A DNA stretch of 64,000 bases from Spirochaetota bacterium (lineage in GTDB: Bacteria; Spirochaetota; UBA12135; COTS27; JAFLEE01), in contig JAFLEE010000012.1 in assembly GCA_017302015.1 (NCBI GenBank), positions 1 through 64,000 of the forward strand, in the 5' to 3' direction. Every line of letters begins with the position of its first letter. Position 1 is the first letter of the stretch. The notes under the pieces are model-generated. The model saw only the letters and a list, made by a program, of their open reading frames with translations. It did no database searches and had not been told where the DNA came from. Shown piece after piece: positions 24,982 to 41,502 of the stretch. The position numbers were made by a program, and so were the translations under genes.

Positions 24982-26139
24982 TCAGGCGCCCGGCTTGACT
25001 CGGGGCGCGCCCAATTGTTCCCGGAGTTCGTCGAAGGTACGGAGGAAGAGGATCTTCCCGCCGGATTCCTGCCGAAGGTGCTCGATGAACGAATCTCGCA
25101 ATCTCGGCTCTTTCCACGTCACCAGATGGGCGAGGCAGAGCGCGCGCACGCCGGGGCGCTTGGCGTAATACGTGAGCACCGGGGAGGAAACGCTCATGAC
25201 GAGCGTGACCGAGGGCGCCAGCCATTCGGCGGGGGTATAGCGGGAAACCGTGCGATCAAGGGGGATATCGCCGAGGAAGTCCACGATGGCGCCGGGATGC
25301 TCCTTGAAATGGAGGTGGAAATCGCGCACGAAGGCCAAGAGGGCGCGGTAGGTGTTCTTGGCATAGTAGAGGTCGACGGCGGATTCCGACCCTTCCCCCA
25401 AGAACAGGGCGTCGAGGCCCTCGGGCGCGACGAAGTCCTCCGGCGTCGGGGCCTCCGCGCAACCGCCGATCCCGGGAACGAGAATCACCCGATGGCGGCG
25501 GAAAAACCCGGGGCCCGCGGAGGGGCTCTCGAAATGGTTGGTATCGATGAAGTCGACCTGAAACCCGTAGAAGGCGCCGTAGATCATCTTTTTCAGGAGC
25601 CGCTTCGGCGTGAGAGGCAGCACGAAGGAACGTTCCGTGGCCCGGAAGGAACTGGAGAAATAGAGCCGCCGCCCCCGACGGAGGCGGGCGAGGAGGCTGA
25701 GTCCGGTGAGGTCGAGGGCGGGGGTGATGAACAGGAGGTCAGAATCGGGCCCGATGCGGGCCTCCAATTCGCGGGCGGTCCGCGCGAGGGCGAAGCGGAA
25801 AGGGAAATAGAGTTTCACGAGGGCGAAGGCGAGGGAAAAAGGGTTTCGGATCTTGAAGAGGGCATCGAGGGTGTCGCGGAATTGGAAGGCGTGCTGTTCC
25901 CAACCCATGAGATCGCAGAGTTTCCAAACATCGGGGTGGCGGCTGAAGGCCGCGGCTGGAATCCCCCGGTTGAGGAGGTGGACCAAGGGCTTCACCCCGA
26001 GGTAGGAGGGCACGAGGACCCAGATCTTTCGGCCGCGGCGGGCGAGTCCCTCGAGGGATTCCACGGGCCAGGGTCCCCGATCGAGGGATTGTTCCCGCAT
26101 GAGTTGGTCGAAGAAGAAGGATTTTTCTGGATGGGCCAC
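24982..26139 (-). CDS. putative GT-B glycosyltransferase, sialyltransferase-like HP and SS motifs
   Basis: About 385 aa from a proposed GTG (26139); a downstream ATG at 26100 is possible. I do not firmly recognise the family. Visible features are an N-terminal Rossmann-like strand KIWVLVPSYLG, a central DLLFITPALD, then a C-terminal half containing HFKEHPG and, later, SVSSPVLTYYAKRPG. A K/E-HP motif followed by a Ser-Ser motif is the pattern used for CMP-sugar binding by bacterial sialyl- and polysialyltransferases. A NeuB/NeuA-type operon starts 1.2 kb away, so a role in transferring its CMP-activated product is attractive but inferred. The N-terminus is uncertain because the start has no Shine-Dalgarno site. 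Confidence 0.5.
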   Translation of the reverse strand: MAHPEKSFFFDQLMREQSLDRGPWPVESLEGLARRGRKIWVLVPSYLGVKPLVHLLNRGIPAAAFSRHPDVWKLCDLMGWEQHAFQFRDTLDALFKIRNPFSLAFALVKLYFPFRFALARTARELEARIGPDSDLLFITPALDLTGLSLLARLRRGRRLYFSSSFRATERSFVLPLTPKRLLKKMIYGAFYGFQVDFIDTNHFESPSAGPGFFRRHRVILVPGIGGCAEAPTPEDFVAPEGLDALFLGEGSESAVDLYYAKNTYRALLAFVRDFHLHFKEHPGAIVDFLGDIPLDRTVSRYTPAEWLAPSVTLVMSVSSPVLTYYAKRPGVRALCLAHLVTWKEPRLRDSFIEHLRQESGGKILFLRTFDELREQLGAPRVKPGA

Positions 26140-26229
26140 GTGGGGAGCGCTGGGGATCCGGTGGCGATCCCCGAGGCGGCGGTATGATAACCTGCGGCGC
26201 GGGGCCCGGCGAGGGGACGCGCCGATTGC

Positions 26230-26259
26230 TTGGACAATTCGCACGTCCACCGTTATAAT
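26230..26259 (+). promoter_or_regulatory. promoter of the Wzz-like gene, leaderless
   Basis: TTGGAC (26230-26235), 18 bp spacer, consensus TATAAT (26254-26259). The ATG is at 26267, seven nucleotides after the -10 box, so the transcript should begin at the start codon. No ribosome-binding site is present. Confidence 0.75.
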
Positions 26260-26266
26260 CCCGTCC

Positions 26267-27265
26267 ATGCAGCACACGGATGGATTGCGCGGGTCGGGCC
26301 TCGACTTGTTGGAACTCGCGCGCATCACCCTCGGGCAAAAGCGGGTCTTCCTCGTTTCCGCGCTCCTCGTTTTCCTGTTCGCCGCCGTCCTCTCCTTCAT
26401 GAAGCCGCAGGAGGCAGTCGTCTCCCGCTCCTACCAATTCAAGATCCCCCAACCCCTCGACGCGGCCCAGGTCGCTGCCAAGACCGCGCAATTCCTGCGC
26501 TTCCCCCCCGGATGCCGATCCCCGTCCGGCGGCGGGCTCTCCAAGGCCGAAGACCGCATCTCGGTCGATCTCGAGTATCGGATCACGGGCAACGGCCTCA
26601 TCGACCCCGGCATCCCCTATTGGAAGGGCGAGGTGATCTCCAGTTTCCGCCGGGCCCTGCTCGTGGGCGCTTTTCAGAGCGATTTCGCCCAACTCTCCAA
26701 CGTCGATGTCGCGTATTTCGAAACCCAACTCGAGGATCGAAGACGCGAACTCGCCGGCCTCGCGGCCTTGCGCGCCGAGAAGGGGAACCTCCCGGGCATC
26801 CCCTTGACCCAATTATCCGGCGATTTCGCCCTCATGCGGCGGTGGGTGGGGGTCGATGCCGTGATGAACGCGCTCGAGAAGGATCTCTTCGGCCTCCAAT
26901 TCCAGCAGAACCGTTATGTACACGCGAAAGAGAAGTTGCGGGCCTGGGACCCCCTCCTCGCCGAATTGGAACGAGTCCCCAGCGCTGACAAGGCCCGGTG
27001 GCTGGCCATCGCTGCGGGCATCCCGAATGTGGAATGGCGCCGCCTGGCCCAGGAGCGCATCGAGCACTACACCTCCAGCATCGCCGACCTCCTCTTCGTG
27101 TCCGAGACCGTGAAGATCGAGGCCAAATCCATCCCCCTTTGGAGGCGCCTCTTGGTTTCTGCCTTGGTGGCCGTCTGTTTCGGCCTCCTGGCCGCCTTCC
27201 TGGTTGGCTTCCTCCCCACGGCACGGGCTGATTTGGGCGTTCGGCTGCCCGCGAAGTCCCCTTGA
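26267..27265 (+). CDS. Wzz-like chain-length/polysaccharide co-polymerase protein
   Basis: 332 aa with two membrane helices: one near residues 25-43 (VFLVSALLVFLFAAVL) and one at about 298-320 (LLVSALVAVCFGLLAAFLVG). They enclose a periplasmic domain of about 250 residues rich in charged helices. The topology and size match Wzz/PCP chain-length regulators, which control O-antigen or capsule length with a Wzy polymerase. The Pro-Gly motif usual in the second helix region is not obvious, and there is no kinase domain. The ATG at 26267 is fixed by a consensus promoter ending 7 nt upstream. It is divergent from the putative GT-B gene. Confidence 0.6.
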   Translation: MQHTDGLRGSGLDLLELARITLGQKRVFLVSALLVFLFAAVLSFMKPQEAVVSRSYQFKIPQPLDAAQVAAKTAQFLRFPPGCRSPSGGGLSKAEDRISVDLEYRITGNGLIDPGIPYWKGEVISSFRRALLVGAFQSDFAQLSNVDVAYFETQLEDRRRELAGLAALRAEKGNLPGIPLTQLSGDFALMRRWVGVDAVMNALEKDLFGLQFQQNRYVHAKEKLRAWDPLLAELERVPSADKARWLAIAAGIPNVEWRRLAQERIEHYTSSIADLLFVSETVKIEAKSIPLWRRLLVSALVAVCFGLLAAFLVGFLPTARADLGVRLPAKSP

Positions 27266-27290
27266 CCCCGTCCGAATTTAAAACTATTCT
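27262..27290 (+). promoter_or_regulatory. sigma70-type promoter of the nonulosonic-acid-type operon
   Basis: TTGACC (27262-27267), 17 bp spacer, TATTCT (27285-27290). The -35 box overlaps the stop codon of the Wzz-like gene. Predicted leader about 55 nt, ending in AGGAG (27342-27346) five bases before the ATG at 27352. Confidence 0.6.
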
Positions 27291-27351: not shown

Positions 27352-28191
27352 ATGTCCGTCATCGTCATCGCCGAAATCGGCATCAACCATAACGGCGACC
27401 TCGACACCGCCAAGAAACTCATCGATGGCGCCGCCATGGCCGGCTGCGACGCGGTGAAGTTCCAGAAGCGCACCCTCGACGTCGTCTACACGAAGGCCGA
27501 ACTCGACAAGCCCCGCGAATCCCCCTGGGGCACCACCAACCGCGAACAGAAGGCCGGGCTCGAGTTCTCCGTGGACCAATACAAGGTGATCGACGCCTAT
27601 TGCAAATCCAAGGGCATCGATTGGCTCTTCTCCGCCTGGGACATCGAAAGCCAACGCGTGATGCGCCCCTTCAACTGCAAATACAATAAGGTCGCCTCGG
27701 CGATGCTCGGGAACGTCGAGTTCCTGAAGGAAGTCGCCGGCGAGAAGAAGTACACGTTCGTCTCCACGGGCATGTCCACCGTCGCCGAACTCGACGCGGT
27801 CGTCGACCTCTTCAAGAAATCCGGTTGCCCCTTCGAACTCATGCATTGCAACTCGACCTACCCCATGAAGAATGAAGAGGCCAACCTCTCCGTCATGGCG
27901 ACCCTGCGCGAGCGCTACAAGTGCAAGGTCGGCTATAGCGGGCATGAAACGGGCCGCATCGTCTCCTTCGCGGCGGTGGCCCTCGGGGCGACGTCGCTCG
28001 AGCGGCACATCACCCTCGACAAGACCATGTACGGCAGCGACCAGGCCGCCTCCATCGAGATCGACGACCTCATCCGGCTGGTCCGCGAACTGCGCATGAT
28101 CCCGGGCATCCTGGGTTCCCCCGAGAAGACGATTTATCCGAAGGAAGCCGAATCCCGGAAGAAATTGCGCTATTACGACGCCGCGAAGTGA
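27352..28191 (+). CDS. neuB: NeuB-family nonulosonic acid synthase lacking the SAF domain
   Basis: 279 aa TIM-barrel enzyme. It begins VIAEIGINHNGD (residues 5-16), followed by CDAVKFQKR, FSVDQYKVID, STGMSTVAE, LMHCNSTYP, VGYSGHETG and LERHITLDKTMYGSD, the complete NeuB active-site set including the metal-binding His pair. NeuB condenses PEP with a 2-acylamino- or hydroxy-hexose (or its 6-phosphate) to a nine-carbon keto-acid. Typical NeuB proteins are 335-350 aa and end in a SAF (antifreeze-like) domain that reaches into the partner's active site. This protein stops where that domain should begin. It is the first gene of a ten-gene operon and overlaps the KdsC-like gene by 4 bp. Confidence 0.88.
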   Translation: MSVIVIAEIGINHNGDLDTAKKLIDGAAMAGCDAVKFQKRTLDVVYTKAELDKPRESPWGTTNREQKAGLEFSVDQYKVIDAYCKSKGIDWLFSAWDIESQRVMRPFNCKYNKVASAMLGNVEFLKEVAGEKKYTFVSTGMSTVAELDAVVDLFKKSGCPFELMHCNSTYPMKNEEANLSVMATLRERYKCKVGYSGHETGRIVSFAAVALGATSLERHITLDKTMYGSDQAASIEIDDLIRLVRELRMIPGILGSPEKTIYPKEAESRKKLRYYDAAK

Positions 28192-28706
28192 TTTTTAACC
28201 GGCTTCGCCCCGGACGCGCACGCCTGCGGCGGGTGCGCCTCATCGCCTTCGACCTCGATGGCGTGTTCACCGACGGGGGGGTCTGGTTCGGCCCCGGCGG
28301 GGGCGAGTGGAAGCGCCTCGGCTATCGCGACCTCGACGGCTATTTCGCACTCCGGCGGGCGGGGTGGAGAACCGCGGTGATCACCGGGGAGAAAGGCGAA
28401 TTGCCGGAGCGTTTCCTCGCGCGTTTGAACCCCGATCATGCGCGGCAAGGATGCAAGGCCAAACTCGCCGCCCTCGATGAGATGCTCCTCGCCGAAGGGA
28501 TCACCCGGGAACAGGTGGCGTATGTCGGCGATAGCACCCACGACCTGGAGGTCTTGCGCGCCGTGGGTCTGGGGATCGCCCCGGCCGACGCCCACCCGCG
28601 CGCACGGGCGGCGGCCCGTTGGGTGCTGGGGCATCGCGGCGGCTACGATGCGGTGGGTGAATTGGCCGAGGCCTTTTTGAAAGTTGCCCCGGGCGGGCAA
28701 GCGTAG
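28188..28706 (+). CDS. KdsC-like HAD phosphatase
   Basis: 172 aa from a GTG overlapping the neuB stop; a GTG at 28233 is an alternative that would give a more usual N-terminus. HAD motifs are FDLDGVFTDGG (motif I), VITGEK (motif II), the lysine in CKAKLAAL and VAYVGDSTHDLEVL (motifs III/IV). The lack of a cap domain and the length match KdsC and the C-terminal domains of some NeuA proteins. It would dephosphorylate an 8- or 9-phosphate of the keto-acid made by the adjacent NeuB, as KDN-9-phosphate phosphatases do. That implies the NeuB substrate is a hexose 6-phosphate. Confidence 0.87.
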   Translation: MIFNRLRPGRARLRRVRLIAFDLDGVFTDGGVWFGPGGGEWKRLGYRDLDGYFALRRAGWRTAVITGEKGELPERFLARLNPDHARQGCKAKLAALDEMLLAEGITREQVAYVGDSTHDLEVLRAVGLGIAPADAHPRARAAARWVLGHRGGYDAVGELAEAFLKVAPGGQA

Positions 28707-28713
28707 GGCGGAC

Positions 28714-29544
28714 ATGGCGAAATGGAAACTTGGCGTGATGCAGGGCCGGCTGCTCCCGAAATACCGGGGACGGTTCCAAGCCCATCCGGTGGGCTATTGG
28801 GAGGATGAGTTCCCCTTGGCCGCCGCCTGCGGCCTTTCGCTCATCGAGTTCATCCTCGATTATCACGACGCCGACAAGAACCCTCTGCTCGAAGCGGGCG
28901 GGGTCGGGCGCATCCGCAAGGCCAGTGCCGCGACGGGGGTCGGGGTCGAAACCGTCTGCGCCGACTACTTCATGGAGGCGCCGCTGCACCACGCCGATCC
29001 CGGCGTCCGTCGCGAGAGCGCCGCGGTGTTCCGCCGGCTCTTGGACACGGCGGGCGAGCTCGGCGTGGGGAACCTCGTGCTCCCCTGTGTCGACCAGTCC
29101 AGCCTCGGCGGAACCGAGGCCGCGGATCGCCTCGTCGAATCCTTGGCGCCGCTTTTGCCCCTGGCCGCGGAGAAGGGGGTGTTTATTTCCTTCGAAACCG
29201 ATCTGGCGCCCGCGCCCTTCGCCGCGCTCCTGGCCAGGATCGATCATCCCGCCGCCCGCGTCAATTGGGATACCGGCAATAGCGCGAGCCTCGGCTACGA
29301 TGCCCGCGAGGAATGGCGGGCCTATGGGCCCCTCATTTCGGACGTGCACCTGAAAGACAGGGTGCGCGGCGGCGGTTCCATCCTCCTCGGCGACGGGGCC
29401 GTGGATTGGGAGGCGTGCCGCACCCTGCTTAAGGACTATGCGGGTCCCGTCATCCTCCAAGCCTGGCGCGATGACGAGGGCCTCGGCGTCTTCAAGCGGC
29501 AACTCGCCTGGGTGCGGGGGAAATTCGGCGGGATCGTGCCATGA
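28714..29544 (+). CDS. sugar phosphate isomerase/epimerase-type TIM barrel protein
   Basis: 276 aa. It begins KLGVMQGRLLPK, a start seen in xylose-isomerase-like TIM barrels of sugar clusters, and has metal-ligand candidates at FILDYHDAD, FETDL, NWDTGN and SDVHLKDR, with the final acidic pair absent or weak at LQAWRDDE. The DxH motif in VHLKD is the family's metal-binding signature. The enzymes interconvert keto- and aldo-sugars or epimerise at C2/C3. Within this operon it could prepare the hexose precursor for NeuB. The ATG at 28714 was preferred over a TTG at 28684. It overlaps the next SDR gene by 4 bp. Confidence 0.8.
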   Translation: MAKWKLGVMQGRLLPKYRGRFQAHPVGYWEDEFPLAAACGLSLIEFILDYHDADKNPLLEAGGVGRIRKASAATGVGVETVCADYFMEAPLHHADPGVRRESAAVFRRLLDTAGELGVGNLVLPCVDQSSLGGTEAADRLVESLAPLLPLAAEKGVFISFETDLAPAPFAALLARIDHPAARVNWDTGNSASLGYDAREEWRAYGPLISDVHLKDRVRGGGSILLGDGAVDWEACRTLLKDYAGPVILQAWRDDEGLGVFKRQLAWVRGKFGGIVP

Positions 29545-30314
29545 ACCTGGGCCTGGAAAACCGTTGCTTCCTCGTGGCCGGGGCCTCCCGCGGCATCGGG
29601 CACGGTATCGCCGGGGCGCTGCTCGCCGAAGGCGCCCGAGTTTGCCTGACCGGCCGGGATGGCGAATCCCTCGGGCGCGCCCAGGCAACCTTCGCGGCGC
29701 TCCATGGGGATCGGGTGTGCGCGGAGCGCTGTGATTTCACCGATCCGTCCTCGCTTCGAGCCCTCATCGAAAAGGTCGGATCCCGCTGGCCGAAGCTCGA
29801 CGGGTTCATTTGGAACGCAGGCAGCGGTCGAAGCGTGCCCGATGCCATCCCCCCCGCCGACCATTGGGCCAAGGTCCAACGCCATAATTTCGACGCGGCC
29901 GTGGAGGCCGCCCGTGCTTTCCTTCCCCTGCTCGTCTCGGCCCGGGGAACCCTCCTGTTCATCGCGAGCATCGCAGGCCTCGAGGCCTTCGGCGCCCCGG
30001 TGGACTACAGCACGGCCAAGGCCGCCCTCATCGCCTTCTCAAAAAATCTTTCGCGCAAGCTGGGGTCGCAGGGCGTGCGCGTCAATACCCTGGCTCCGGG
30101 CAACGTCGCGTTCCCCGGCGGCGATTGGGACCGAAAGCGCGCCGAGGATCCCGCCAAGGTCGAGGCGATGCTCAAAGCCTCCGTGCCCCTGGGGCGCTTC
30201 GGCACGCCCGAGGAGATCGGCGCCGCCGCGGCCTTCCTGGTCTCGCCCCGGGCCGACTTCATCACCGGCGCGTGCCTGGTGGTGGATGGCGGGCAAACTG
30301 TGGGCCTCTTCTAA
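29541..30314 (+). CDS. SDR family NAD(P)-dependent oxidoreductase
   Basis: 257 aa classical SDR. GASRGIG cofactor motif at residues 14-20, WNAGSG in place of NNAG near 92-97, catalytic Ser in IASIAG, and YSTAK with Tyr and Lys near 155-159. The C-terminus ends ITGACLVVDGGQ, as in FabG-like proteins. The ATG overlaps the preceding stop (ATGA). It probably oxidises or reduces a hydroxyl or keto group on the precursor sugar. It differs clearly from the second SDR of the operon (33016-33858), so two separate redox steps are likely. Confidence 0.86.
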   Translation: MNLGLENRCFLVAGASRGIGHGIAGALLAEGARVCLTGRDGESLGRAQATFAALHGDRVCAERCDFTDPSSLRALIEKVGSRWPKLDGFIWNAGSGRSVPDAIPPADHWAKVQRHNFDAAVEAARAFLPLLVSARGTLLFIASIAGLEAFGAPVDYSTAKAALIAFSKNLSRKLGSQGVRVNTLAPGNVAFPGGDWDRKRAEDPAKVEAMLKASVPLGRFGTPEEIGAAAAFLVSPRADFITGACLVVDGGQTVGLF

Positions 30315-30332
30315 CCGCGTCTCGGGGGTCCC

Positions 30333-30788
30333 ATGGAAGAACATCGCCTCATCGGCTTCCGCCATATCGGCATCATCGTCAACAAGATGGAAGAATCCAT
30401 CCGGTTCTACCGCGACCTCCTCGGGTTCACGGTGGCGCAGGACTGGACGGAGGACAGCGCATACCTCAACACCGTGCTCGGGACGACGGGCGAGCGCGTG
30501 CGCATGGCGAAACTGCGGGGCCCCGATGGCATCCTCGTCGAACTCCTGCGCTACGAGAAGAACCGGTCGGGCGAATTGGATCTCCCCTTCTGGCACGCCG
30601 GGGTCTGCCACATGGCCCTCACGGTCGCCGACGTGGGCGCGACCTGGAAGAAACTGAGCGCCGCCGGGGTGCCCTTCGTCAGCCCGCCCCAAGAGAGCAC
30701 CGAAGGAACGGCCAAGGTCTGCTTCTGCACCGACCCCAACGGCATCCGCGTCGAACTCGTCGAGATCAAGGCGGCCGCCCCTCGCTGA
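30333..30788 (+). CDS. VOC (glyoxalase/dioxygenase superfamily) protein
   Basis: 151 aa. Two beta-alpha-beta-beta-beta units are visible, starting GFRHIGIIVNKMEESIRFYRDLLGF and GVCHMALTVADVGATWKKL, each with the His that begins a VOC metal site; Glu residues in ILVELLRY and IRVELVEI supply the remaining ligands. A complete two-His, two-Glu site is therefore plausible. VOC enzymes include glyoxalase I, epimerases (methylmalonyl-CoA) and isomerases. In this operon an epimerase or isomerase acting on a sugar intermediate fits best, but no substrate can be named. It lies 18 bp after the SDR gene and 17 bp before the cytidylyltransferase gene. Confidence 0.83.
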   Translation: MEEHRLIGFRHIGIIVNKMEESIRFYRDLLGFTVAQDWTEDSAYLNTVLGTTGERVRMAKLRGPDGILVELLRYEKNRSGELDLPFWHAGVCHMALTVADVGATWKKLSAAGVPFVSPPQESTEGTAKVCFCTDPNGIRVELVEIKAAAPR

Positions 30789-30805
30789 TGCGATAATTTC
30801 GCACC

Positions 30806-31549
30806 ATGCCGAACATCGTCGCCATCATCCCCGCCCGGGGCGGCTCCAAAGGCGTCCCCGGGAAGAACATCAAACCCCTCGCGGGGCATCCCCTCATCGC
30901 CTGGTCCATCGCGGCGGCGAAACTCTCCAAGCGCGTGGAGGGGCTGGTCATCACCACCGACAGCGAGGAGATCGCCGAGGTCTGCCGCCGATACGGCGAA
31001 GAAGTCCCCTTTCTGCGGCCCGCGGCCTATGCCGGGGATAAGTCCACCGACCGCGATTTCATGATCCACGCCCTCGACTGGTGGCAGGCCAACCGCGGTC
31101 CCGTTCCGGAGTATTGGGTGCACCTGCGGTCCACGACCCCCCTGCGCGACCCGGCCCACCTCGACGAGGCGATCGAGGCCATCACCGCCGCTCCCGGGGC
31201 GACCTGCCTCCGTTCCGCCCATCCCGCCCCCGAATCCCCCTTCAAGTGGTTCCGCAAGACGGAAGACGGGCAATTCACCGGGCTGGATCCGAACGAGACC
31301 CGGCCCGATGCCACCAACCTGCCGCGGCAGGCTTTCCCCGATGTGTTTATCCCCGACGGGTACGTCGATGTGCTGCGGGCGAGTTTCATCCGCTCCGGGC
31401 AGATGATCCACGGGCCCAAGATCCGCGCCTGGGTGTCCCCGGTGAGCGTGGAGGTGGATCGCCCCGAAGATTTCGAGCGCCTCGAGTTCCTCGCCCAACG
31501 CCAACGGCCCGTGCTGCTCGACTGGCTCGACCGCAACCGCCGGGCGTGA
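30806..31549 (+). CDS. neuA: NeuA-like cytidylyltransferase (acylneuraminate family)
   Basis: 247 aa. The nucleotidyl-transfer loop is IIPARGGSKGVPGKNI (residues 7-22), containing the RxxSKxxxxKN signature of NeuA/KdsB enzymes. HLRSTTPLRDPAHLDEAI is the later conserved QxTSPLR-like block, here with ST in place of TS. VEVDRPEDFE is the C-terminal I-D-xx-D-xx-x signature. The protein would activate the nonulosonic acid with CTP. No C-terminal hydrolase domain is fused; the KdsC-like phosphatase two kilobases upstream supplies it separately. Confidence 0.87.
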   Translation: MPNIVAIIPARGGSKGVPGKNIKPLAGHPLIAWSIAAAKLSKRVEGLVITTDSEEIAEVCRRYGEEVPFLRPAAYAGDKSTDRDFMIHALDWWQANRGPVPEYWVHLRSTTPLRDPAHLDEAIEAITAAPGATCLRSAHPAPESPFKWFRKTEDGQFTGLDPNETRPDATNLPRQAFPDVFIPDGYVDVLRASFIRSGQMIHGPKIRAWVSPVSVEVDRPEDFERLEFLAQRQRPVLLDWLDRNRRA

Positions 31550-31605
31550 TGCGGGCCGCCCCGCGACCCGACCGTCCGACCCCACCGTCCCCCTAGGAGG
31601 CTCCC

Positions 31606-32991
31606 ATGTCCGGTTTCCGATTCAATCTCACCCCGCGGGACGTCGCCCCGGTCTCCACCAAGCACCGACGCATCAAAACCAAGATCCCCGTCCCCCAGAG
31701 CCTCCCGATCCTCGCCCGCGTCGAGGAACTCGAGAGCACCTCCATGCACGGCGCCCTGCCGGTGCTTTGGGACCGCGCCGAGGGGCACAACGTCTACGAC
31801 GCTTGGGGAAATAAATGGCTCGACTTCACGAGCACCATCTTCGTGACGAACGCGGGCCACGGGAACAAGCGCATCCGAAAGGCGATGAAGAAGGTCATCG
31901 ACAAGCCCCTGCTCCACACCTACATGTACGTGTCCCGGGAGCGGGCGGATTACCTCGAATACCTGATCGCCAAGACGCCGGCGCACCTCGACAAGGCCTT
32001 CATGCTCTCGGCCGGCACGGAGGCCACCGAGTGCGCGCTGAAGCTCATGCGAATGAACGGATGGAAAACCGGTAAGAAACGCCCGGGCATCCTGGCGTTC
32101 GAGGGCAATTGGCACGGGCGCACCCTGGGCGCCCAGATGATGGGGTGGAACCCGGCGCAGAAGGAGTGGATCGGCTACCAGGATCCTAACATCCACCATC
32201 TCCCCTTCCCGTACCCCTGGCGCGAAGAGGCCATGAAGGATCCCCGCAAGTATTTCCGCGAGGCCATCGCCAAACTCTGCGCCGAGAAGAACCTCGACCC
32301 GAAGCAAGACCTCTGCGGCGTGATGATGGAGACCTGGCAGGGCTGGTGCGCGGCGATGTACCCGCCCGCCTTCGCCCAGGAAGTCGAGGCCTTCTGCCGC
32401 GAGAACGGCCTGCTCCTGGCCTTCGACGAGATGCAATCGGGCTTCGGCCGCACCGGAAAACTCTTCGGCTATATGCATTACGGCGTGGAGCCCGACCTGC
32501 TGTGCTGCGGAAAGGGCGCCGCCTCCAGCGTGCCGTTGTCGTTGGTGCTCGGGCGCAAGGCCATCATGGACCTCCCGGAGATCGGCAGCATGAGTTCCAC
32601 CCACTCCGCCAATCCCCTCGTCTGTGCGGCCGGGAAGGCGAACCTCCAGGCCATCCTCGAGGATGGCCTCATGGCCAATGCGGAGCGTCTTGGGCCCGTC
32701 TTCCAGGCCGAATTGGAGAAGATCCGCGCGGCGCACCCGAAGCATGTCAGCCGCATCATCGGGGTCGGCCTGGTGGCGGCGATCATCTTCCGCGATCCGG
32801 CCGACCAAGCCCTTGCATGGCTCGGCGACCGCGCCAGCGAACTTTCGATGGAGCGCGGGCTCCTCGTCGTGCACACGGGGCGCGAAAGCATCAAGATCGC
32901 CCCCCCCCTCTCGATCACCGAAGACGCCCTGCGCGAGGGCTGCGCGGTGCTCGCTTCCTCGGTAGCCGACGCCATCCGGGAACGCGGCTAG
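31606..32991 (+). CDS. class III aminotransferase
   Basis: 461 aa with AGGAGG seven bases before the ATG. Fold-type I motifs are LSAGTEATECALKL (phosphate loop, near residues 134-147), GNWHGRTLG (aromatic stacking), FDEMQSGFGRTG (PLP Asp274 region) and the Schiff-base Lys303 in CCGKGAAS. The order is that of acetylornithine/GABA/glutamate-1-semialdehyde aminotransferases. Nonulosonic-acid precursors are normally aminated by DegT-type enzymes, so a class III enzyme here is unusual. It probably installs the amino group on a keto intermediate, at an open-chain or terminal position. The upstream gap of 56 bp has no promoter I can see. Confidence 0.87.
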   Translation: MSGFRFNLTPRDVAPVSTKHRRIKTKIPVPQSLPILARVEELESTSMHGALPVLWDRAEGHNVYDAWGNKWLDFTSTIFVTNAGHGNKRIRKAMKKVIDKPLLHTYMYVSRERADYLEYLIAKTPAHLDKAFMLSAGTEATECALKLMRMNGWKTGKKRPGILAFEGNWHGRTLGAQMMGWNPAQKEWIGYQDPNIHHLPFPYPWREEAMKDPRKYFREAIAKLCAEKNLDPKQDLCGVMMETWQGWCAAMYPPAFAQEVEAFCRENGLLLAFDEMQSGFGRTGKLFGYMHYGVEPDLLCCGKGAASSVPLSLVLGRKAIMDLPEIGSMSSTHSANPLVCAAGKANLQAILEDGLMANAERLGPVFQAELEKIRAAHPKHVSRIIGVGLVAAIIFRDPADQALAWLGDRASELSMERGLLVVHTGRESIKIAPPLSITEDALREGCAVLASSVADAIRERG

Positions 32992-33015
32992 CCCCGGCAG
33001 GCGCCGACCGACCCC

Positions 33016-33858
33016 ATGGGCAAGATCGAACCCCTCCCCCAAGTGTTTTCGCTCTCCGGGCGCGGCGCCGTGATCACCGGCGGAGCGGGCCTCCTCGGCC
33101 GGGAGCACGCCGCGGCGCTCCTGGAAGCGGGGGCACGGGTGGCGCTCCTCGACATCTCCATCGAAGCCCTGGCGAAGGCGTCCGCGGGCTTCCCCGAGGA
33201 GGAGCGCGCACGCGTGGCCACGATCGCCTGCGACATCACCCGGGAGGAAGCGGTCTCGAAAGCGCTCGCGGAACTCGCGGGCGCTTGGGGGGAGGCGCCC
33301 CATATCCTCGTCAATAACGCCGCCATCGACCCGAAATTCGAGAAGGACAGCACCGTCAACCGCTCGCGCCTGGAGCATTTTCCGCTGGAGCAGTGGAACC
33401 GCGAGTTGGCCGTTGGCCTCACGGGCTCCATGGTCTGCGCGAAGGTCTTCGGGTCGGCGATGGCCGCCGCGGGGCGCGGCGTCATCCTCAATATCGCCTC
33501 CGACCTCGGCCTCATCGCGCCGGACCAGAGGCTCTACCGGAAAGAAGGGCTCCCCGAGGGGATGCAGAGCGTGAAGCCCGTGACGTATTCGGTGATCAAA
33601 CACGGCCTCATCGGCCTCACGCGCTACCTGGCGACCTATTGGCCGGAACGGGGGGTGCGGTGCAATGCCTTCGCGCCGGGGGGCGTTTTCAATAACCACG
33701 CCGACCCGTTCCTGGCGAACCTCACGCGCCTCATCCCGATGGGCCGCATGGCCCGCCTCGGGGAATACCGGGGGGCCGTACTCTTCCTTTGCAGCGACGC
33801 ATCCAGTTATATGAACGGCGCGGTCCTCGCGATGGACGGCGGAAGGAGCACTTGGTGA
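33016..33858 (+). CDS. SDR family oxidoreductase (PtmA-like)
   Basis: 280 aa. TGGAGLLG cofactor motif at residues 21-28, NNAAID near 99-104, catalytic Ser in IASDLG, and YSVIK with Tyr/Lys near 196-200, followed by RYLATYW and RCNAFAPGG. The long insert before the active-site Tyr (about residues 165-195) resembles the PtmA-type SDRs that accompany nonulosonic acid genes in Campylobacter-type clusters. It overlaps the following oxidoreductase gene by 4 bp. A redox step on the hexose precursor is inferred. Confidence 0.84.
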   Translation: MGKIEPLPQVFSLSGRGAVITGGAGLLGREHAAALLEAGARVALLDISIEALAKASAGFPEEERARVATIACDITREEAVSKALAELAGAWGEAPHILVNNAAIDPKFEKDSTVNRSRLEHFPLEQWNRELAVGLTGSMVCAKVFGSAMAAAGRGVILNIASDLGLIAPDQRLYRKEGLPEGMQSVKPVTYSVIKHGLIGLTRYLATYWPERGVRCNAFAPGGVFNNHADPFLANLTRLIPMGRMARLGEYRGAVLFLCSDASSYMNGAVLAMDGGRSTW

Positions 33859-34820
33859 GCAAATCGATCCTCCTGATCGGCACGGGCCCCATGGCCGCCG
33901 AGTACCTCAAGATCCTCACGGCCAAGGCCTCGGGCGAGGTGACGGTGGCCGGTCGCGACGACGGGCGGCTGGCGGGCGTGAAAGCCGCGTTCCCCGGGGT
34001 CGACACGTTCCGATTGCCCCCGGCGGGCGCTCCCCTCGGGCGGACCTGGGACGCGGCGATCCTGGCCAGCGGCATCCCGGACCTCGCCGGAGATCTCGAA
34101 CGGTGCCTCGCCGCCGGAATTCCCCAGGTGCTCGTGGAGAAGCCGGTCACCACCGATTTGACCCGCCTGAAGCGATTGGCCGACCTGGCGGCGGGGAAGG
34201 GGGCTCGGGTGCGCGTGGCGACCAATCGCCGCCATTACGGGTCGATCCGAAAGTTGAAGGCGATCCTCGCGGGCGAAAGCCCCCTGGGGGCCTCCTTCGA
34301 TTTCACCGAGTGGCTTTCGCGGGTTCCGAAGGCTTGGGAATCCCATGAGGGCGGGCAGCGCCTCGCGCTCTCCAATTCCTTCCACGTCTTCGACACGGTC
34401 GAGCATCTCCTGGGCGCGTTCAAGAAGGAAGCGGGCTTCCACGGGGAGACTGGCGCCGTGGCCTGGCACCCCGATCCGGTGGTGTTCTTCGGCTACGGGA
34501 AGGCCGGAACGACCCCGGTGGTCTACGGCACCAGTTGGATCTCCCCCGGGCGCTGGGCCATCGAAGTCATGACGCGGGAGGGCCGCTATCGCCTCGCCCC
34601 CATGGAGAAGCTCGCGGTGCTGCGGCACGGCACCCTGGAGTGGAAAGAGATACCCCTCGACAACCAGGTTGATCTCGATTTCAAACCCGGGCTCGCGGGG
34701 GTCGTCGGCGAGTTTCTCGTCCCCCCCGGCGGCGGAGAAGCGCTCTTGCCCGACCTGAACGCCTACCTCCAAATGGCGACCCGGATGGCCGACCTGTGCG
34801 GCTACAAGGCGGCCCCATGA
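33855..34820 (+). CDS. Gfo/Idh/MocA-type oxidoreductase
   Basis: 321 aa from a GTG overlapping the SDR stop codon, with AAGGAG six bases upstream. An N-terminal Rossmann fold starts SILLIGTGPMAAEYL; VLVEKPVTTDL is the family's EKP motif near residue 88, holding the catalytic Lys, and ATNRRHYGSIRK follows as the N-R/H region. The C-terminal part is a beta-rich dimer domain. These enzymes oxidise or reduce sugar hydroxyls with NAD(P). It forms a tandem with the similar but distinct next gene. PtmF-like proteins in legionaminic-acid pathways are comparable. Confidence 0.78.
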   Translation: MSKSILLIGTGPMAAEYLKILTAKASGEVTVAGRDDGRLAGVKAAFPGVDTFRLPPAGAPLGRTWDAAILASGIPDLAGDLERCLAAGIPQVLVEKPVTTDLTRLKRLADLAAGKGARVRVATNRRHYGSIRKLKAILAGESPLGASFDFTEWLSRVPKAWESHEGGQRLALSNSFHVFDTVEHLLGAFKKEAGFHGETGAVAWHPDPVVFFGYGKAGTTPVVYGTSWISPGRWAIEVMTREGRYRLAPMEKLAVLRHGTLEWKEIPLDNQVDLDFKPGLAGVVGEFLVPPGGGEALLPDLNAYLQMATRMADLCGYKAAP

Positions 34821-35791
34821 AAGACGTGCTCCTCATCGGATGCGGCGGGATCGGTTTCCGCCATTTCCAATCCCTCCTCACCGTCGCGGGGATCGAGCGG
34901 GTGACGCTCCACGATCCGTTCCAAAAGGACTTTTCCCGATTCGAGGCGGAACGGGCCAAAGCCGGCCATGGGATGCGGCTCGAGGTCGCGCCGACGCTTC
35001 AATTCACGAACCCGGGAAAGGGTTGGGATCTCGCCATCGCCGCGGCGACCGCCAATGCCCAGCCGGGAATCGCGGAGGCCCTCTCCAAGGTTCCGGTGAG
35101 GTCTGTTCTCCTTGAGAAACCCGTGGCCCAGGGTCCGCGGGAGTTCGAGGCCATCGTCGGACATTATGGGCGCGGCCCCGGGATCGATCGGGTCTTCGTG
35201 AATTGCGCCCGGAATTTCTGGCCCGGCTACGAGCAGGTGCGCACGGGCATCCTCGCCGGGCGCACCCGGCCGACCCAGGTCGTGCTAAACGGCTACAATT
35301 GGGGCTACGGTTGCAACGCGGTGCACTACCTCGAACTGCACCGCCACTGGTTCGGTTCCACGGGTTTCCCGAAGATCCAGGCCACGTTGATGAAGGATCC
35401 CCGGCCCTCCAAGCGCGGGGATCAATTCGAGGATTTCTTCGGGATCGCGGTCTTCGAGGACCACGCGGGCAATATCCTGCAGCTCTCCACGATGCCCTTG
35501 GCGGCGACGATGCCCCACGACATCGTCCTCAACCTCTATGACCGGGATACCGGGGAGAATCTGGGCGCCGTGGAGGAGACCCGCCAGATCGTGCGTTCTT
35601 TCCAGACCGGGAAGGAAAGCCCATGGGCCCCGCTCTATGTCAGCCAGAGCACCGCGCGGTTCATCGAAGGGCTGGATTCCCCCGGCACCGGCGGCCGGTT
35701 GCCCACCCTCGCCGAATCCGCGATGATCCACGGGGCCTTCTACGAATCGCTTCGCCTCGGGATCGGCGATCGCCCCTGGCGGATCACCTAG
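34817..35791 (+). CDS. Gfo/Idh/MocA-type oxidoreductase
   Basis: 324 aa; the ATG overlaps the previous stop (ATGA). It begins VLLIGCGGIGFRHFQSLL (Rossmann GxGxxG, residues 5-22), with LLEKPVAQGPREF near residue 100 as the EKP motif and VNCARNFWPGYEQ following. HYLELHRHWFG in the C-terminal domain provides the conserved active-site His. It is only distantly similar to its upstream partner, so the pair may act at successive steps or as a heteromer. It is the last gene of the ten-gene operon and converges with the HddC-GmhB gene after 78 bp. Confidence 0.78.
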   Translation: MKDVLLIGCGGIGFRHFQSLLTVAGIERVTLHDPFQKDFSRFEAERAKAGHGMRLEVAPTLQFTNPGKGWDLAIAAATANAQPGIAEALSKVPVRSVLLEKPVAQGPREFEAIVGHYGRGPGIDRVFVNCARNFWPGYEQVRTGILAGRTRPTQVVLNGYNWGYGCNAVHYLELHRHWFGSTGFPKIQATLMKDPRPSKRGDQFEDFFGIAVFEDHAGNILQLSTMPLAATMPHDIVLNLYDRDTGENLGAVEETRQIVRSFQTGKESPWAPLYVSQSTARFIEGLDSPGTGGRLPTLAESAMIHGAFYESLRLGIGDRPWRIT

Positions 35792-35869: not shown

Positions 35870-37153
35870 TCAAGCGCAGAGGATCGCTTCGACGGCTTCG
35901 GGGAGCCCGGGGGCCAGAATTTTCGGCGTCGTCCAGTCGGCTTCCCAGGGCCCGACGCCGCAGGTGCCCACCCCCGCCGCGAGGCCCGCCTTCATGTCGC
36001 GGTCGTGGTCGCCGACCATCCAAGACCGGGCGAGGTCGATATGGAAATCGCGGCAGGCTGCGAGCAGCATGCCCGGGCCGGGCTTGCGGCAATCGCAGCG
36101 GACCTTGAGTTCCGGGATCTCCCCCGCGAAGCCCTTGTCGGGATGGTGCGGGCAATAATAGACGGCGTCGAGTTTCGCCCCCGCCTCCCCGAGGAGGAAG
36201 TCCATCTTGGCGTGGATCCGGTCGAGGCCTTCGCGGGTAAGTTCGCCCCGCGCGATGGCCGGTTGGTTGGTGACGAGCACCGCGAGGTAATCGGTCTGGT
36301 TGATGCGGCGCACGGCCTCCGCGGCGCCGGGGAGCAGGAGGAACTCTTCGGGGGATTTGATATAGCCGGGTTCTTCGAACGCATTGAGCACCCCGTCGCG
36401 ATCGAGGAAGATGGCGGGGCGGGGACGGCGGCGATTCAGCCGCTGGATTTTACCGCTGCGGAAATCGGCGTCGACCTTCGCCAGGCGTTCGGGGGTGCCC
36501 ATGTCCTTGAGGTACTCCCCGGTATTCCAGGCGGACAGGGATCCCCGGTGGGCCAGCCCGGGGAAGACTCCCTTGTCGAGGTCCGCCTTCTTGCCCTTCT
36601 CGAGGAAGGAGAAGATCCCCGGGGAGAAGACGAAGGCGCCGGCGTTCACCAGGTTTCGGTAGAAGGCACCGTCGGCATGGGGGCGCGGGTGGAAGGCGGT
36701 GACGCGGCCGTCGGGCGCGGCCTCCAGAAGGTCGCTGTCGCGGGGATGGTCGTTGGGATGGGCGACGAGGGTGCCCAAGGCGCCCCGCGCGCGGTGGAAG
36801 GCCGCGAGCGCGTCGAGATCGATGTCGAGCATCACATCGCCGTTGAAGCAGAAGAAATCCTCGTCGAGGAACGCCTCCCCTTCTTTGAGCCCCCCCGCCG
36901 TGCCCAAGGGTTCGCGCTCGACGAGGGTGGTGAGGCGCACGCCCCAACGGGAACCGTCCCCGAAGTACGCCTGGATGGCCTCGGGGCGATAGCCGAGGAG
37001 GAGCACGATGTCCTTCACCCCATGGCGGGCGAGGAGTTCGATCTGGTGCTCGAGGACCGGCTTCCCGCCGATCTTCGCCAAGACTTTAGGGAGTCCGCCG
37101 GTGACCGCGGCGAGGCGCGTGCCTTTGCCGCCCGCGAGGATGGCCGCTTTCAT
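35870..37153 (-). CDS. fused sugar-phosphate nucleotidyltransferase (HddC-like) and GmhB-type phosphatase
   Basis: 427 aa, two domains. Residues 1-235 form a nucleotidyltransferase: LAGGKGTRL at residues 6-14, LPKVLAKIGGKPVLEH, and FNGDVM (metal-binding Asp). Residues 245-427 form a HAD phosphatase of the GmhB type: FLDRDGVLN, LVTNQPAIARG, and a zinc site CPHHPDKG...CDCRKP. In the GDP-heptose pathway GmhB removes the 7-phosphate from heptose 1,7-bisphosphate and HddC adds GMP to heptose 1-phosphate, so the fusion joins consecutive steps. GmhA and the HddA kinase are not in the window. It overlaps the upstream epimerase gene by 4 bp. Confidence 0.85.
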   Translation of the reverse strand: MKAAILAGGKGTRLAAVTGGLPKVLAKIGGKPVLEHQIELLARHGVKDIVLLLGYRPEAIQAYFGDGSRWGVRLTTLVEREPLGTAGGLKEGEAFLDEDFFCFNGDVMLDIDLDALAAFHRARGALGTLVAHPNDHPRDSDLLEAAPDGRVTAFHPRPHADGAFYRNLVNAGAFVFSPGIFSFLEKGKKADLDKGVFPGLAHRGSLSAWNTGEYLKDMGTPERLAKVDADFRSGKIQRLNRRRPRPAIFLDRDGVLNAFEEPGYIKSPEEFLLLPGAAEAVRRINQTDYLAVLVTNQPAIARGELTREGLDRIHAKMDFLLGEAGAKLDAVYYCPHHPDKGFAGEIPELKVRCDCRKPGPGMLLAACRDFHIDLARSWMVGDHDRDMKAGLAAGVGTCGVGPWEADWTTPKILAPGLPEAVEAILCA

Positions 37154-38136
37154 GCGTATTTGGCCAGGACCGGCTTGAAATAATCCCGGGTGATCCCGAG
37201 GCCCTCGTGGAGCGAGGTGCGGGGCACCCATCCCACATCGCGTCGGATCTTGGCGTTGGAGATGATGACGTCGCCGGATTCGATGGCGGCGCGTTCGGCG
37301 GGCCAGGGCACGCGCGCCACGCTCCCGCCGACCTGCTCCGTGATCGCTTGGGCGAGTTCGAGCACCGAATATTGGCGGTCGGCGACGGCGAAGTAGACCT
37401 CCCCGCGGCTGGCGGGGCGCGCGGCCACCGAAAGGAGCGCCTCCACGGAATCGCCGACGAACGAGACGTTGCGGAGTTGGCGGCCCTCGCCGTAGACGGT
37501 GAGGGCGCGGCCGGCGAGGGCCAGGCCGATGAAGTAGTTGATGAAGCCGAAATCCGCGCTGCGGATATTCGATCGGGGGCCGTAGGTGTTCGCCAGACGC
37601 ACCACCGCGACATCGAGCCCGTGGGCCTTGCCGTAGAGCAGCGTGTATTTTTCGCCGGCGCACTTATTGGCCGAATAGATGTCGACGGGGAATTCGCTGT
37701 GGACCTCGTCGATGACGGGGGCGTGCATCGGCCCGATCTGGGTGCTCGTCCCGACGTAGAGCACCCGGGCGGAGGGCTGGAACCGGCGCACCGCCTCGAG
37801 GACGTGGATGGTGCCCTTGCAATTGATGTCGATGTCGACCAATGGTTCGCGCATGGAGTTGGGGTGGGAGGTGTAGGCCGCGCAGTGGAGGACGAGGTCC
37901 TGGTGGAGCACGGCCTGGCAGAGCGCCTCGAAATTGCGCACATCGTTGATGACGAGGCGGACCCGGTCCCGCACGCCCTCGAGGTTGTAGTGGTTGCCGC
38001 CCGACTTCGGATCGAGGCAATCGTAGACGGTCACCTCGGCGCCGAGGGCGAGGGCCCGGTGGGCCAGGTTGCTGCCGATGAACCCGAGCCCCCCGGTGAT
38101 GAGGATCTTTTTCCCTTCAAAATCGGCGGGAGTCAT
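37150..38136 (-). CDS. NAD-dependent epimerase/dehydratase
   Basis: 328 aa extended SDR. ITGGLGFIGSNLA at residues 13-25, HCAAYTSHPNS near 84, YVGTSTQIG (catalytic Thr/Ser region), and YSANKCAGEKY with Tyr/Lys. VRLANTYGPRS is the substrate-side motif. The closest general patterns are UDP/CDP-sugar 4-epimerases and CDP-paratose 2-epimerase-like proteins. It sits between a DegT aminotransferase gene (3 bp upstream) and the HddC-GmhB fusion. The substrate may be a GDP- or CDP-sugar; sequence alone does not decide. Confidence 0.84.
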   Translation of the reverse strand: MTPADFEGKKILITGGLGFIGSNLAHRALALGAEVTVYDCLDPKSGGNHYNLEGVRDRVRLVINDVRNFEALCQAVLHQDLVLHCAAYTSHPNSMREPLVDIDINCKGTIHVLEAVRRFQPSARVLYVGTSTQIGPMHAPVIDEVHSEFPVDIYSANKCAGEKYTLLYGKAHGLDVAVVRLANTYGPRSNIRSADFGFINYFIGLALAGRALTVYGEGRQLRNVSFVGDSVEALLSVAARPASRGEVYFAVADRQYSVLELAQAITEQVGGSVARVPWPAERAAIESGDVIISNAKIRRDVGWVPRTSLHEGLGITRDYFKPVLAKYA

Positions 38137-38139
38137 GGT

Positions 38140-39237
38140 TCACGCCCGGAACGATTTCACCGCGTCGATGACCGTCTGCTGCTCGCCCTCGGTGAGGCCG
38201 GGGAATAGGGGAAGGGACAGGATCTCTCGGCAGGCCCGCTCCGACTCCGGGAGCGCTTCGCCGCCGCGCACGCGGCCCCGGTAGGCGTCCTGAAGGTGCA
38301 CGGGCAAGGGGTAATGGATGGCCGCGCCGATGCCCTTGGACTGGAGGTGGCGCTTGAGGCCCTCCCGATCGGCGCTGCGGACCACGAAGAGGTGGAAGAC
38401 GTGCGAGGTGCCGGGCCGCACCCGGGGAAGCCCCACGCCCGTTCCGTCCAATTCATGGAGGTACACCGCGGCCTGGCGCTGGCGCTCGGCGGTATCGGCG
38501 CCCAGGCGGGGAAGTTTTTCACGCAAGATCGCGGCCTGGAGTTCGTCGAGCCTGCTATTGAAGCCGGTCGTGGCGCTGTGGTAGCGCTCGCGCCATCCGT
38601 ATTCCCGGAGTTCGCGGATGCGGGACGCGACGGCGGACTCACGGGCGCAGACGAGTCCCCCGTCGCCGAAGGCGCCCAGATTCTTGGTCGGGTAGAACGA
38701 GAAGCATCCGGCGTCTCCGATGCTCCCCACCGTGAGGTTCCGGTGGCGGGCCCCGTGGGCCTGCGCGCAGTCCTCGATGAGGAGGAGGCCGCGGCTGCGG
38801 GCGATGGCGCCGAGGCGGTCGAGGTCGGCAGGCTGGCCGTAGAGGTGCACGGCGAGGATGGCCTTCGTTTTCGGGCCGCAAGCCTCGTCGACACGGGCGG
38901 GGTCGAGGGTGAAGGTCGCCGCCTCGATGTCGGCGAAGACGGGGATGGCGCCGGCCATTTCCACGGCCGCGATGGTGGCCACCGCGGTGTGGGAAGGCAC
39001 GATGACCTCGTCTCCCGCTCCGATGCCGAGGGCGCGCAGGGCGAGATGCAGGGCATCGGTGCCGCTGCCGACCCCGATGGCGAAGGGGGAGCCGCAGGCG
39101 GCGGCGAACTCCCGCTCGAAGGCCTCGACCTCGGGGCCCAGGATGTAGCGGCCGGAATCGAGTACGCGGTGGAGGGCCCCCTCGATGGCTTGGCGGTGGG
39201 CTTTCCAGGAGTCGCCGGGGCGGGCGAAGGGGATCAT
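38140..39237 (-). CDS. DegT/DnrJ/EryC1/StrS sugar aminotransferase
   Basis: 365 aa. It shows GSGTDALHLAL (phosphate loop, residues 58-68), LLIEDCAQAHGA near 152-163 and SFYPTKNLGAFGDGG, with Lys185 as the PLP Schiff-base residue. Unlike the ColD-like relative at 18627-19802, the lysine is intact, so this is a true aminotransferase that aminates a keto-nucleotide sugar with glutamate as donor. With gmd immediately upstream of fcl in the same operon, GDP-4-keto-6-deoxymannose is a possible substrate (a perosamine-type product), but C3-directed activity is equally possible. There is a 13 bp gap from fcl. Confidence 0.88.
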   Translation of the reverse strand: MIPFARPGDSWKAHRQAIEGALHRVLDSGRYILGPEVEAFEREFAAACGSPFAIGVGSGTDALHLALRALGIGAGDEVIVPSHTAVATIAAVEMAGAIPVFADIEAATFTLDPARVDEACGPKTKAILAVHLYGQPADLDRLGAIARSRGLLLIEDCAQAHGARHRNLTVGSIGDAGCFSFYPTKNLGAFGDGGLVCARESAVASRIRELREYGWRERYHSATTGFNSRLDELQAAILREKLPRLGADTAERQRQAAVYLHELDGTGVGLPRVRPGTSHVFHLFVVRSADREGLKRHLQSKGIGAAIHYPLPVHLQDAYRGRVRGGEALPESERACREILSLPLFPGLTEGEQQTVIDAVKSFRA

Positions 39238-39250
39238 CGGTGGCGTGGGG

Positions 39251-40297: not shown

Positions 40298-40310
40298 GGA
40301 GGCCCTGGGA

Positions 40311-41384: not shown

Positions 41385-41400
41385 AATAGTCTCCGGAAAT

Positions 41401-41415
41401 GGGGCCTGAGGCCCC
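41401..41415. other. perfect short hairpin GGGGCC-TGA-GGCCCC near the gmd transcription start
   Basis: A 6 bp perfect stem with a 3 nt loop lies at the predicted start of the gmd transcript and ends three bases from its -10 box. It could be an operator or a 5' stabilising stem. Confidence 0.35.
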
Positions 41416-41417
41416 CT

Positions 41418-41446: not shown

Positions 41447-41467
41447 TGGAAAGGCGGTCCGCTCCCC

Positions 41468-41497: not shown

Positions 41498-41502
41498 CGA
41501 CC

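Follow-up and report, generated by a model that had tools for sequence, protein, structure and literature searches.

Here, we report that ten genes in a spirochaete genome (Spirochaetota bacterium, contig JAFLEE010000012.1; "the window" is its first 64,000 nucleotides) probably direct the synthesis of a CMP-activated 3-deoxy-2-ulosonic acid for the surrounding polysaccharide cluster by a Kdo-like logic, and that their NeuB-type synthase, which has no SAF domain, belongs to a separate clade of synthases that extends across many phyla and into archaea and phages. Together, NeuB, the phosphatase and NeuA would form a Kdo/KDN-like phosphorylated ulosonic-acid route, seemingly in an undescribed variant. 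In many related loci NeuB is linked to a GmhA-like isomerase, which gives a clear prediction on the starting sugar of NeuB. All ten ORFs that a previous sequence-only reading had placed at 27352-35791 are present on the + strand, intact and operon-like, with intergenic gaps between -4 and +56 bases (in order: -4, 7, -4, 18, 17, 56, 24, -4 and -4):

27352-28191, + strand: NeuB, SAF-less NeuB-type PEP-dependent ulosonic acid synthase, 279 aa (PF03102, 2e-66)
28188-28706, + strand: KdsC/KDN-9-P-phosphatase-type HAD phosphatase, 172 aa (PDB 3e81, BT1714, 4.6e-26; DxD and GDxxxD motifs)
28714-29544, + strand: TIM, xylose-isomerase-like TIM barrel of ketose 3-epimerase fold (PF01261, 5.9e-25)
29541-30314, + strand: SDR1, short-chain dehydrogenase (adh_short_C2, 2.1e-50)
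30333-30788, + strand: VOC, VOC-superfamily protein with candidate H/E/H/E metal ligands (Glyoxalase, 7.7e-22)
30806-31549, + strand: NeuA, NeuA-type CMP-ulosonate cytidylyltransferase (CTP_transf_3, 2.2e-22; PDB 9ftb NeuA, 2.4e-29)
31606-32991, + strand: AT3, class III aminotransferase (Aminotran_3, 1.2e-82; Lys303 kept)
33016-33858, + strand: SDR2, short-chain dehydrogenase (adh_short_C2, 1.4e-39)
33855-34820, + strand: GFO1, Gfo/Idh/MocA oxidoreductase (PF01408, 2.4e-7)
34817-35791, + strand: GFO2, probable divergent Gfo/Idh/MocA oxidoreductase (Rossmann start, EKP motif, GFO1 neighbour)

Pfam supports nine of these ten genes, and active-site motifs are present in the operon proteins. GFO2 has no Pfam match; it is called a probable Gfo/Idh/MocA protein because of its Rossmann start, its EKP motif and the adjoining GFO1. 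The predicted TIM model superposes on UlaE with a Z score of 29.8; E161, D186 and H212 are invariant, and at the fourth metal-site position most members have Gln in place of the usual Glu. NeuA reaches 115 bits against the PseF cut-off of 205.7. A single shared promoter had also been proposed, and TTGACC-17-TATTCT at 27262-27290 is indeed the sole match of its kind; since shuffled sequences give 0.9 matches on average, however, it does no better than chance and is no evidence of a promoter.

The NeuB of the operon lacks the SAF domain with its catalytic Arg. Its predicted model (pLDDT 93.9) matches PDB 6ncs best (Z 35.1) and NmNeuB next (Z 34.5), covering only the barrel of the latter and ending at chain residue 294. 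The short length is a clade trait, as all 81 relatives measure 272-290 aa when counted from the domain start. In a tree that compared this clade with structurally solved synthases, namely SAF-type NeuB, Pse and SpsE sequences and the Leptospira enzyme (6ncs), it is split from them at 99/96. NeuB also stays under the equivalog cut-offs of both TIGR03569 (NeuB/NnaB; 239.6 bits, cut-off 399.65) and TIGR03586 (PseI; 171.7 bits, cut-off 340.25). Its place outside the Neu, Leg and Pse clades supports the sequence-only reading. The equivalents of NmNeuB E25, K53, Q55, K129, S132, S154, Y186, S213, H215, E234, H236 and D247 are kept, and most of them are invariant across the 81 relatives; NmNeuB E134 is replaced by Met in the operon protein, which we count against our best explanation. 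In Nonomuraea, NeuA, KdsC and NeuB are joined in a single 730-aa ORF. Our literature search for SAF-less NeuB or deculosonic acid found nothing usable.

A KdsC-type phosphatase is found in 42 of the 80 NeuB loci compared but in none of the eight SAF-type NeuB control loci. The closest PDB entry to the operon phosphatase is 3e81, the KDN-9-P phosphatase BT1714. Glu occupies the BT1714 E56 position in 42/43 aligned NeuB-linked phosphatases (alignment without the L080 row), whereas E. coli KdsC has Arg there; the operon phosphatase keeps this Glu and carries Arg at the K67 position. It scores 90.7 bits against the NF058599 equivalog (cut-off 180). The operon proteins also miss the Kdo-type equivalogs (KdsC, 106 of 208 bits; KdsB, 32.1 of 155.2 bits). 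A phosphatase next to NeuB points to a phosphorylated NeuB acceptor, and in this the sequence-only reading was borne out. Please note that no other full-length KdsC-like protein than this phosphatase (P0002) was found in the genome; for this reason it might also serve Kdo. Kdo synthesis by the operon itself was considered and dropped, since the genome has a separate KdsA above its cut-off (contig C151) and the operon NeuB is thus not its Kdo synthase.

A GmhA-like phosphoheptose isomerase is present in 46/80 NeuB loci versus 1/8 control loci. In 33 loci it lies within 2 kb of NeuB on the same strand, 22 of these being KdsC-GmhA fusions, and in L080 phosphatase and GmhA are fused in the reversed order. 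The NeuB-linked GmhA proteins keep the zinc ligands and the phosphate-binding Ser/Thr, and two stand-alone copies exceed the TIGR00441 equivalog cut-off. On phage contigs, which also carry a terminase, we found NeuA-AT3-VOC-TIM-SDR2-GmhA-NeuB operons with overlapping genes; a core of the operon is common to distant bacteria, archaea and viruses of bacteria. The idea that GmhA is a chance neighbour derived from heptose clusters was dropped in view of the immediate adjacency, the fusions in both orders and the phage operon. Among the 34 genomes without a local GmhA, ten have no convincing GmhA anywhere, including all three Caulobacter genomes tested. No GmhA adjoins NeuB within the window, and the only GmhA-like ORF found in the genome, on contig C101, stays below the cut-off (130 bits, with 209 required). 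The GmhA link, the clade-wide lack of the SAF domain and the phage copies all go beyond the sequence-only reading.

All co-occurrence figures refer to loci centred on NeuB (the 80 loci and eight controls), and the p-values below treat related loci as independent, so that significance is overstated, particularly where the Lachnospiraceae fusions are concerned. The sequence-only reading took the ten genes as a unit making one product. Several of the extra genes do accompany this type of NeuB in phyla that are not related to each other, but the ten are not a fixed set: there are two separable modules, TIM-SDR2-SDR1 and NeuA-AT3-VOC, both recurring across phyla. TIM and SDR2 occur together in 24/80 loci (p=1e-11, related loci as independent), mostly without AT3, which shares five loci with SDR2; SDR1 is found in 16/80. 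All eight VOC loci have AT3 (p=6e-9, same caveat), and AT3 shares 36-65% identity with its counterparts in NeuB loci from other phyla. GFO1 and GFO2 recur together in one of the 80 loci, L025, where the GFO1 partner is 29% identical and a weak GFO2 partner adjoins it. A plasmid search returned no record for AT3 and one for SDR2. In a 16S comparison against 25 genomes, long matches did not exceed 76%.

In the route that we propose, a GmhA-type sugar isomerase would supply an aldose phosphate. Many relatives encode this enzyme next to the phosphatase or fused with it, but with no local GmhA in the window it must here be encoded at another place in the genome. The SAF-less NeuB would then condense the aldose phosphate with PEP, and the HAD phosphatase would take off the terminal phosphate. 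Judging from family membership, the SDR and GFO dehydrogenases, the TIM-barrel epimerase and VOC may create a keto group and fix its configuration, AT3 may convert this keto group to an amine, and NeuA would finally activate the sugar with CMP. Gene content, intact motifs, clade and linkage are observed; the sequence of the reactions, the presence of an amine and the identity of the acceptor are what we infer. The Kdo pathway runs KdsD-KdsA-KdsC-KdsB, i.e., from an SIS isomerase through a PEP synthase and a HAD phosphatase to CMP transfer, and the same logic would apply here; in the operon route, however, NeuB stands for KdsA, a GmhA-type enzyme for KdsD and NeuA for KdsB, and the phosphatase has the KDN-type Glu. 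As for the acceptor, heptose-7-P, leading to a ten-carbon product, is our best single guess, held with rather less than even confidence; mannose-6-P, leading to a nine-carbon product of KDN type, is the next candidate and quite possible, and any other acceptor seems less likely.

In the possible nine-carbon alternative, NeuB would join Man-6-P and PEP to KDN-9-P, the phosphatase would release KDN, the extra enzymes would turn it into an amino-KDN and NeuA would activate it, with the relatives' GmhA-like proteins acting as fructose-6-P/mannose-6-P isomerases. The KDN pathway of B. thetaiotaomicron is BT1713-BT1714-BT1715, the same NeuB/phosphatase/NeuA trio that the operon holds together, and the phosphatase is closest in the PDB to BT1714 with E56 kept. 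Both this pathway and the CMP-Kdn pathway of P. parvum use a NeuB-family synthase on a phosphorylated aldose, a HAD phosphatase and NeuA-type activation, but no aminotransferase, VOC, TIM, SDR, GFO or GmhA link is described for them. The absence of GmhA from Caulobacter genomes with a SAF-less NeuB also suits this alternative. Man-6-P is an ordinary metabolite, however, so that there would be no need for the dedicated GmhA which so many lineages encode beside NeuB, and two linked copies score above the sedoheptulose-7-P isomerase cut-off. Two precedents also favour the nine-carbon route. A Kdn-9-P synthase using Man-6-P has been proven in P. parvum (PMC6200933). According to the accessible part of the report on Serratia marcescens KL1/KL2 (PMC9000132), whose capsule contains KDN, a NeuB with a COG1082 TIM domain is required for KDN; the NeuB family is thus joined with a sugar-isomerase TIM barrel there too, but as one fused protein, and that part reports no KdsC, AT3 or VOC. 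The Leptospira NeuB-phosphatase fusion (PMC3438082; PDB 6ncs) likewise joins synthase to phosphatase and has a short NeuB chain, the best structural match to our model, but it falls on the opposite side of the NeuB tree and is a predicted Neu5Ac maker.

The modular gene content could also mean two products, NeuB/KdsC/NeuA/AT3/VOC making the ulosonic acid and TIM/SDR1/SDR2 with the GFOs making a second sugar or a glycan substituent, as L012 and L013 (NeuA/AT3/VOC without TIM/SDR2/SDR1), L009, L020, L061, L062 and L044 (the converse) and L055, whose TIM module lies ~6 kb from NeuB, would suggest. We consider this unlikely: the phage operons carry both modules in one overlapping run, and both track the same NeuB, as with TIM and SDR2 in 24/80 loci. 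Far less probable still, and dropped, is the idea that the operon belongs to a canonical route to Neu5Ac, legionaminic or pseudaminic acid whose partner genes are scattered. The operon holds no 2-epimerase, DegT aminotransferase or acetyltransferase, as had been noted, and no LegB, LegC, LegH or LegG; yet the minus strand carries DegT genes in the vicinity (38140-39237 and 18627-19802), together with a LegB/RmlB-like SDR. Against LegB, that SDR scores no more than 121.9 bits where 475 are required, and the nearby GMD/GDP-fucose synthase genes suit other sugars. The tree split, the missed equivalog cut-offs, the missing SAF domain and the phosphatase all speak against these routes, and in Azospirillum a SAF-less NeuB adjoins a complete Leg cluster with its own SAF-type NeuB. 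What the sequence-only reading proposed, a NeuB/KdsC/NeuA ulosonic-acid core accompanied by enzymes that are not those of the Neu, Leg and Pse routes, is upheld.

Sialic-acid-like sugars shape how hosts, phages and immune systems recognise cells, yet only a few known routes underlie the catalogue of these sugars. The starting sugar of the pathway proposed here may be one carbon longer than that of any such pathway known to us, and the phage-borne operons suggest that viruses, too, make or remodel the predicted sugar.

Ten open reading frames with spacing of -4 to +56 bases lie on the plus strand, nine of which fall into Pfam families (NeuB, HAD, xylose-isomerase-like TIM barrel, SDR, glyoxalase/VOC, cytidylyltransferase, class III aminotransferase, SDR, and GFO_IDH_MocA); the ten-gene operon with a NeuB/KdsC/NeuA-type core described in the sequence-only reading is thus present. 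The Pfam search gave no match for the tenth frame, GFO2, which has a Rossmann motif at its start and the EKP motif of the Gfo/Idh/MocA superfamily. The operon and its flanks are:

24982-26400, minus strand: 472-aa frame, no Pfam or NCBIfam match; by eye, could be a glycosyltransferase
27352-35791, plus strand: ten-gene operon
35870-41669, minus strand: nucleotidyltransferase-GmhB-like fusion, dTDP-glucose-dehydratase-like SDR, DegT aminotransferase, GDP-fucose synthase, GDP-mannose 4,6-dehydratase

No core enzyme of the operon attains its NCBIfam equivalog cut-off, i.e., NeuB_NnaB (239.6 bits; cut-off 399.65), PseI (171.7; 340.25), KDN-9-P phosphatase (90.7; 180), KdsC (106; 208), and PseF (115; 205.7). 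The shared promoter proposed at 27262-27290 gains no support: the one match is no more than shuffled sequence yields.

The window NeuB (279 residues, model pLDDT 93.9) finds its best structural matches in 6ncs from Leptospira (Z 35.1) and in the N. meningitidis NeuB (Z 34.5), and because the latter match stops at chain residue 294, the window protein is without the SAF domain, whose arginine is essential in C. crescentus NeuB (R322; PMC7591256); meningococcal R314 is mutated in PDB entries 4ipi and 4ipj. Equivalents of meningococcal E25, K53, Q55, K129, S132, S154, Y186, S213, H215, E234, H236, and D247 are retained, E134 is Met118, and K36, Q38, K39, R40, T62, W91, S94, W96, D97, K113, S116, Y170, S196, H198, E217, H219, and D230 are invariant in 81 relatives. 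The refuting case named in the sequence-only reading, a NeuB inside a known clade, is not seen in a maximum-likelihood tree of Neu, Pse, and SpsE synthases without KDN enzymes, where support of 99/96 divides 19 SAF-type/PDB rows (NmNeuB, PseI, SpsE, 6ncs) from 62 others, two multidomain long-branch proteins joining the SAF-less side. The window's genome also encodes a 423-aa SpsE-like NeuB-family protein adjoining a radical SAM gene (contig C119; L095, L111). Elsewhere, in a 631-aa Prochlorococcus protein (L059, 6930-8825) a divergent NeuB is joined to a SAF-like stretch and a TIM-like domain, an arrangement like that reported in the Serratia KDN enzyme; a 730-aa frame of Nonomuraea gerenzanensis (L099, 8633-10825) matches NeuA, KdsC, and NeuB, a triple core fusion; and on an Azospirillum thermophilum plasmid (L098, 4588-29439) a complete legionaminic cluster including a SAF-type NeuB adjoins a SAF-less NeuB, a two-domain protein with a KdsC end, and a TIM/SDR module.

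Partner genes were counted by profile searches and co-occurrence in 80 related NeuB loci from one-per-species genomes, part of a larger total. The TIM barrel and second SDR occur together in 24 loci (p=1e-11), the TIM barrel is present in 14 of the 16 loci with the first SDR, and the class III aminotransferase is found in all eight VOC loci (p=6e-9), plus a window-like NeuA; these p-values are too small, because the loci share kinship to differing degrees. Sets are most complete in Syntrophorhabdus (L030), Anaerolineae (L047), Chthoniobacterales (L060), Riflebacteria (L068), Eubacterium (L069), and an actinobacterium (L072). Two modules thus recur with NeuB, one of the TIM barrel and the two SDRs, the other of the class III aminotransferase, VOC, and NeuA; the GFO pair is found again in L025 only. 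The earlier interpretation of the operon is partly supported. Other loci add methyltransferases, B12 radical SAM enzymes, class IV aminotransferases, TPP enzymes, and LIC12162-type transferases. The TIM barrel model (pLDDT 93.9) is closest to L-xylulose-5-P 3-epimerase UlaE (Z 29.8) and to ketose 3-epimerases; E161, D186, and H212 are invariant among members, and most carry Gln where the fourth metal-site Glu would usually be, a natural guess being a predicted epimerase/isomerase working next to a carbonyl.

The closest solved structure to the operon phosphatase is BT1714, the B. thetaiotaomicron KDN-9-P phosphatase, whose Glu56 has been studied for specificity, since PDB 4hgq is, by alignment, BT1714 itself with a Glu56-to-Ala change. 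Among 43 correctly aligned NeuB-linked phosphatases, 42 have Glu at position 56 (Arg in E. coli KdsC) and 34 have Lys/Arg at position 67 (Thr in E. coli KdsC); Glu56/Lys67 are residues which we take to control specificity. The operon phosphatase is the sole full-length KdsC-like protein found in the window's genome, which has its own KdsA (contig C151). This phosphatase may work in both pathways, or a second copy may be absent from the assembly.

NeuB-linked KdsC proteins of 350-375 residues have a second domain matching phosphoheptose isomerase, GmhA (L030, 176 of 209 bits for TIGR00441). GmhA-like domains occur in 46 of the 80 loci; KdsC-GmhA fusions account for 22, one fusion has the reverse order (L080), and stand-alone genes also occur, often immediately before NeuB (L013, L024, L034, L041); two stand-alone copies exceed the equivalog cut-off and others fall short by a few bits. 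Zinc ligands H61, E65, Q172, and H180 and the phosphate-binding Ser/Thr (roles in PMC5387315) are retained in most copies. Around eight SAF-type NeuB control genes, GmhA was nearby once, 6 kb away, and no KdsC was found. A local GmhA is present in 25/25 Bacillota, Actinomycetota, and Thermoplasmatota loci versus 20/54 others; the former groups presumably lack the usual LPS heptose pathway, which the others mostly should have. Thirty-four genomes have no local copy; in 24 of them a GmhA-like match of at least 75 bits lies elsewhere, and no match at that level was found in Caulobacter, a Coxiellaceae, and some others. All 11 genomes bearing the class III aminotransferase have a match somewhere. 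The window's genome has one weaker GmhA-like frame (contig C101) and an HldE-like kinase domain 10 bits below cut-off.

In 82 phage/viral NeuB loci, the class III aminotransferase occurs in 23, VOC in 28, NeuA in 44, and GmhA in 12, and a terminase gene lies on 8/20 cassette-type contigs:

Phage cassette contigs: L167, L172, L182-L186; L122-L129, L132, L153
Cassette contigs with terminase named: L167, L182, L183, L186, L127, L132
L183, 3444-8822: overlapping NeuA, class III aminotransferase, VOC, TIM barrel, second SDR, GmhA, and NeuB genes

Genes for PhoH and a DegT aminotransferase and others of GDP-mannose type follow the L183 cassette, a set like that at 35870-41669 of the window. Since GmhA sits inside this compact operon and no heptose kinase was noticed among the surrounding genes, the GmhA product seems to feed NeuB, and the L183 gene set is our best single argument for it.

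The GmhA link slightly favors heptose-7-P as the acceptor and a ten-carbon product. A nine-carbon, KDN-type product is a strong rival, because KDN synthesis from Man-6-P is established in P. parvum (PMC6200933) and Serratia makes KDN with a NeuB bearing a COG1082 domain (PMC9000132). The predicted route would be Kdo synthesis with swapped parts, i.e., GmhA in place of KdsD, the SAF-less NeuB in place of KdsA, a KDN-type phosphatase in place of KdsC, and NeuA in place of KdsB; most likely, the dehydrogenases, VOC, and aminotransferase would form a keto group, then an amine. There is a defined chance that the operon could yield a new class of sugar.
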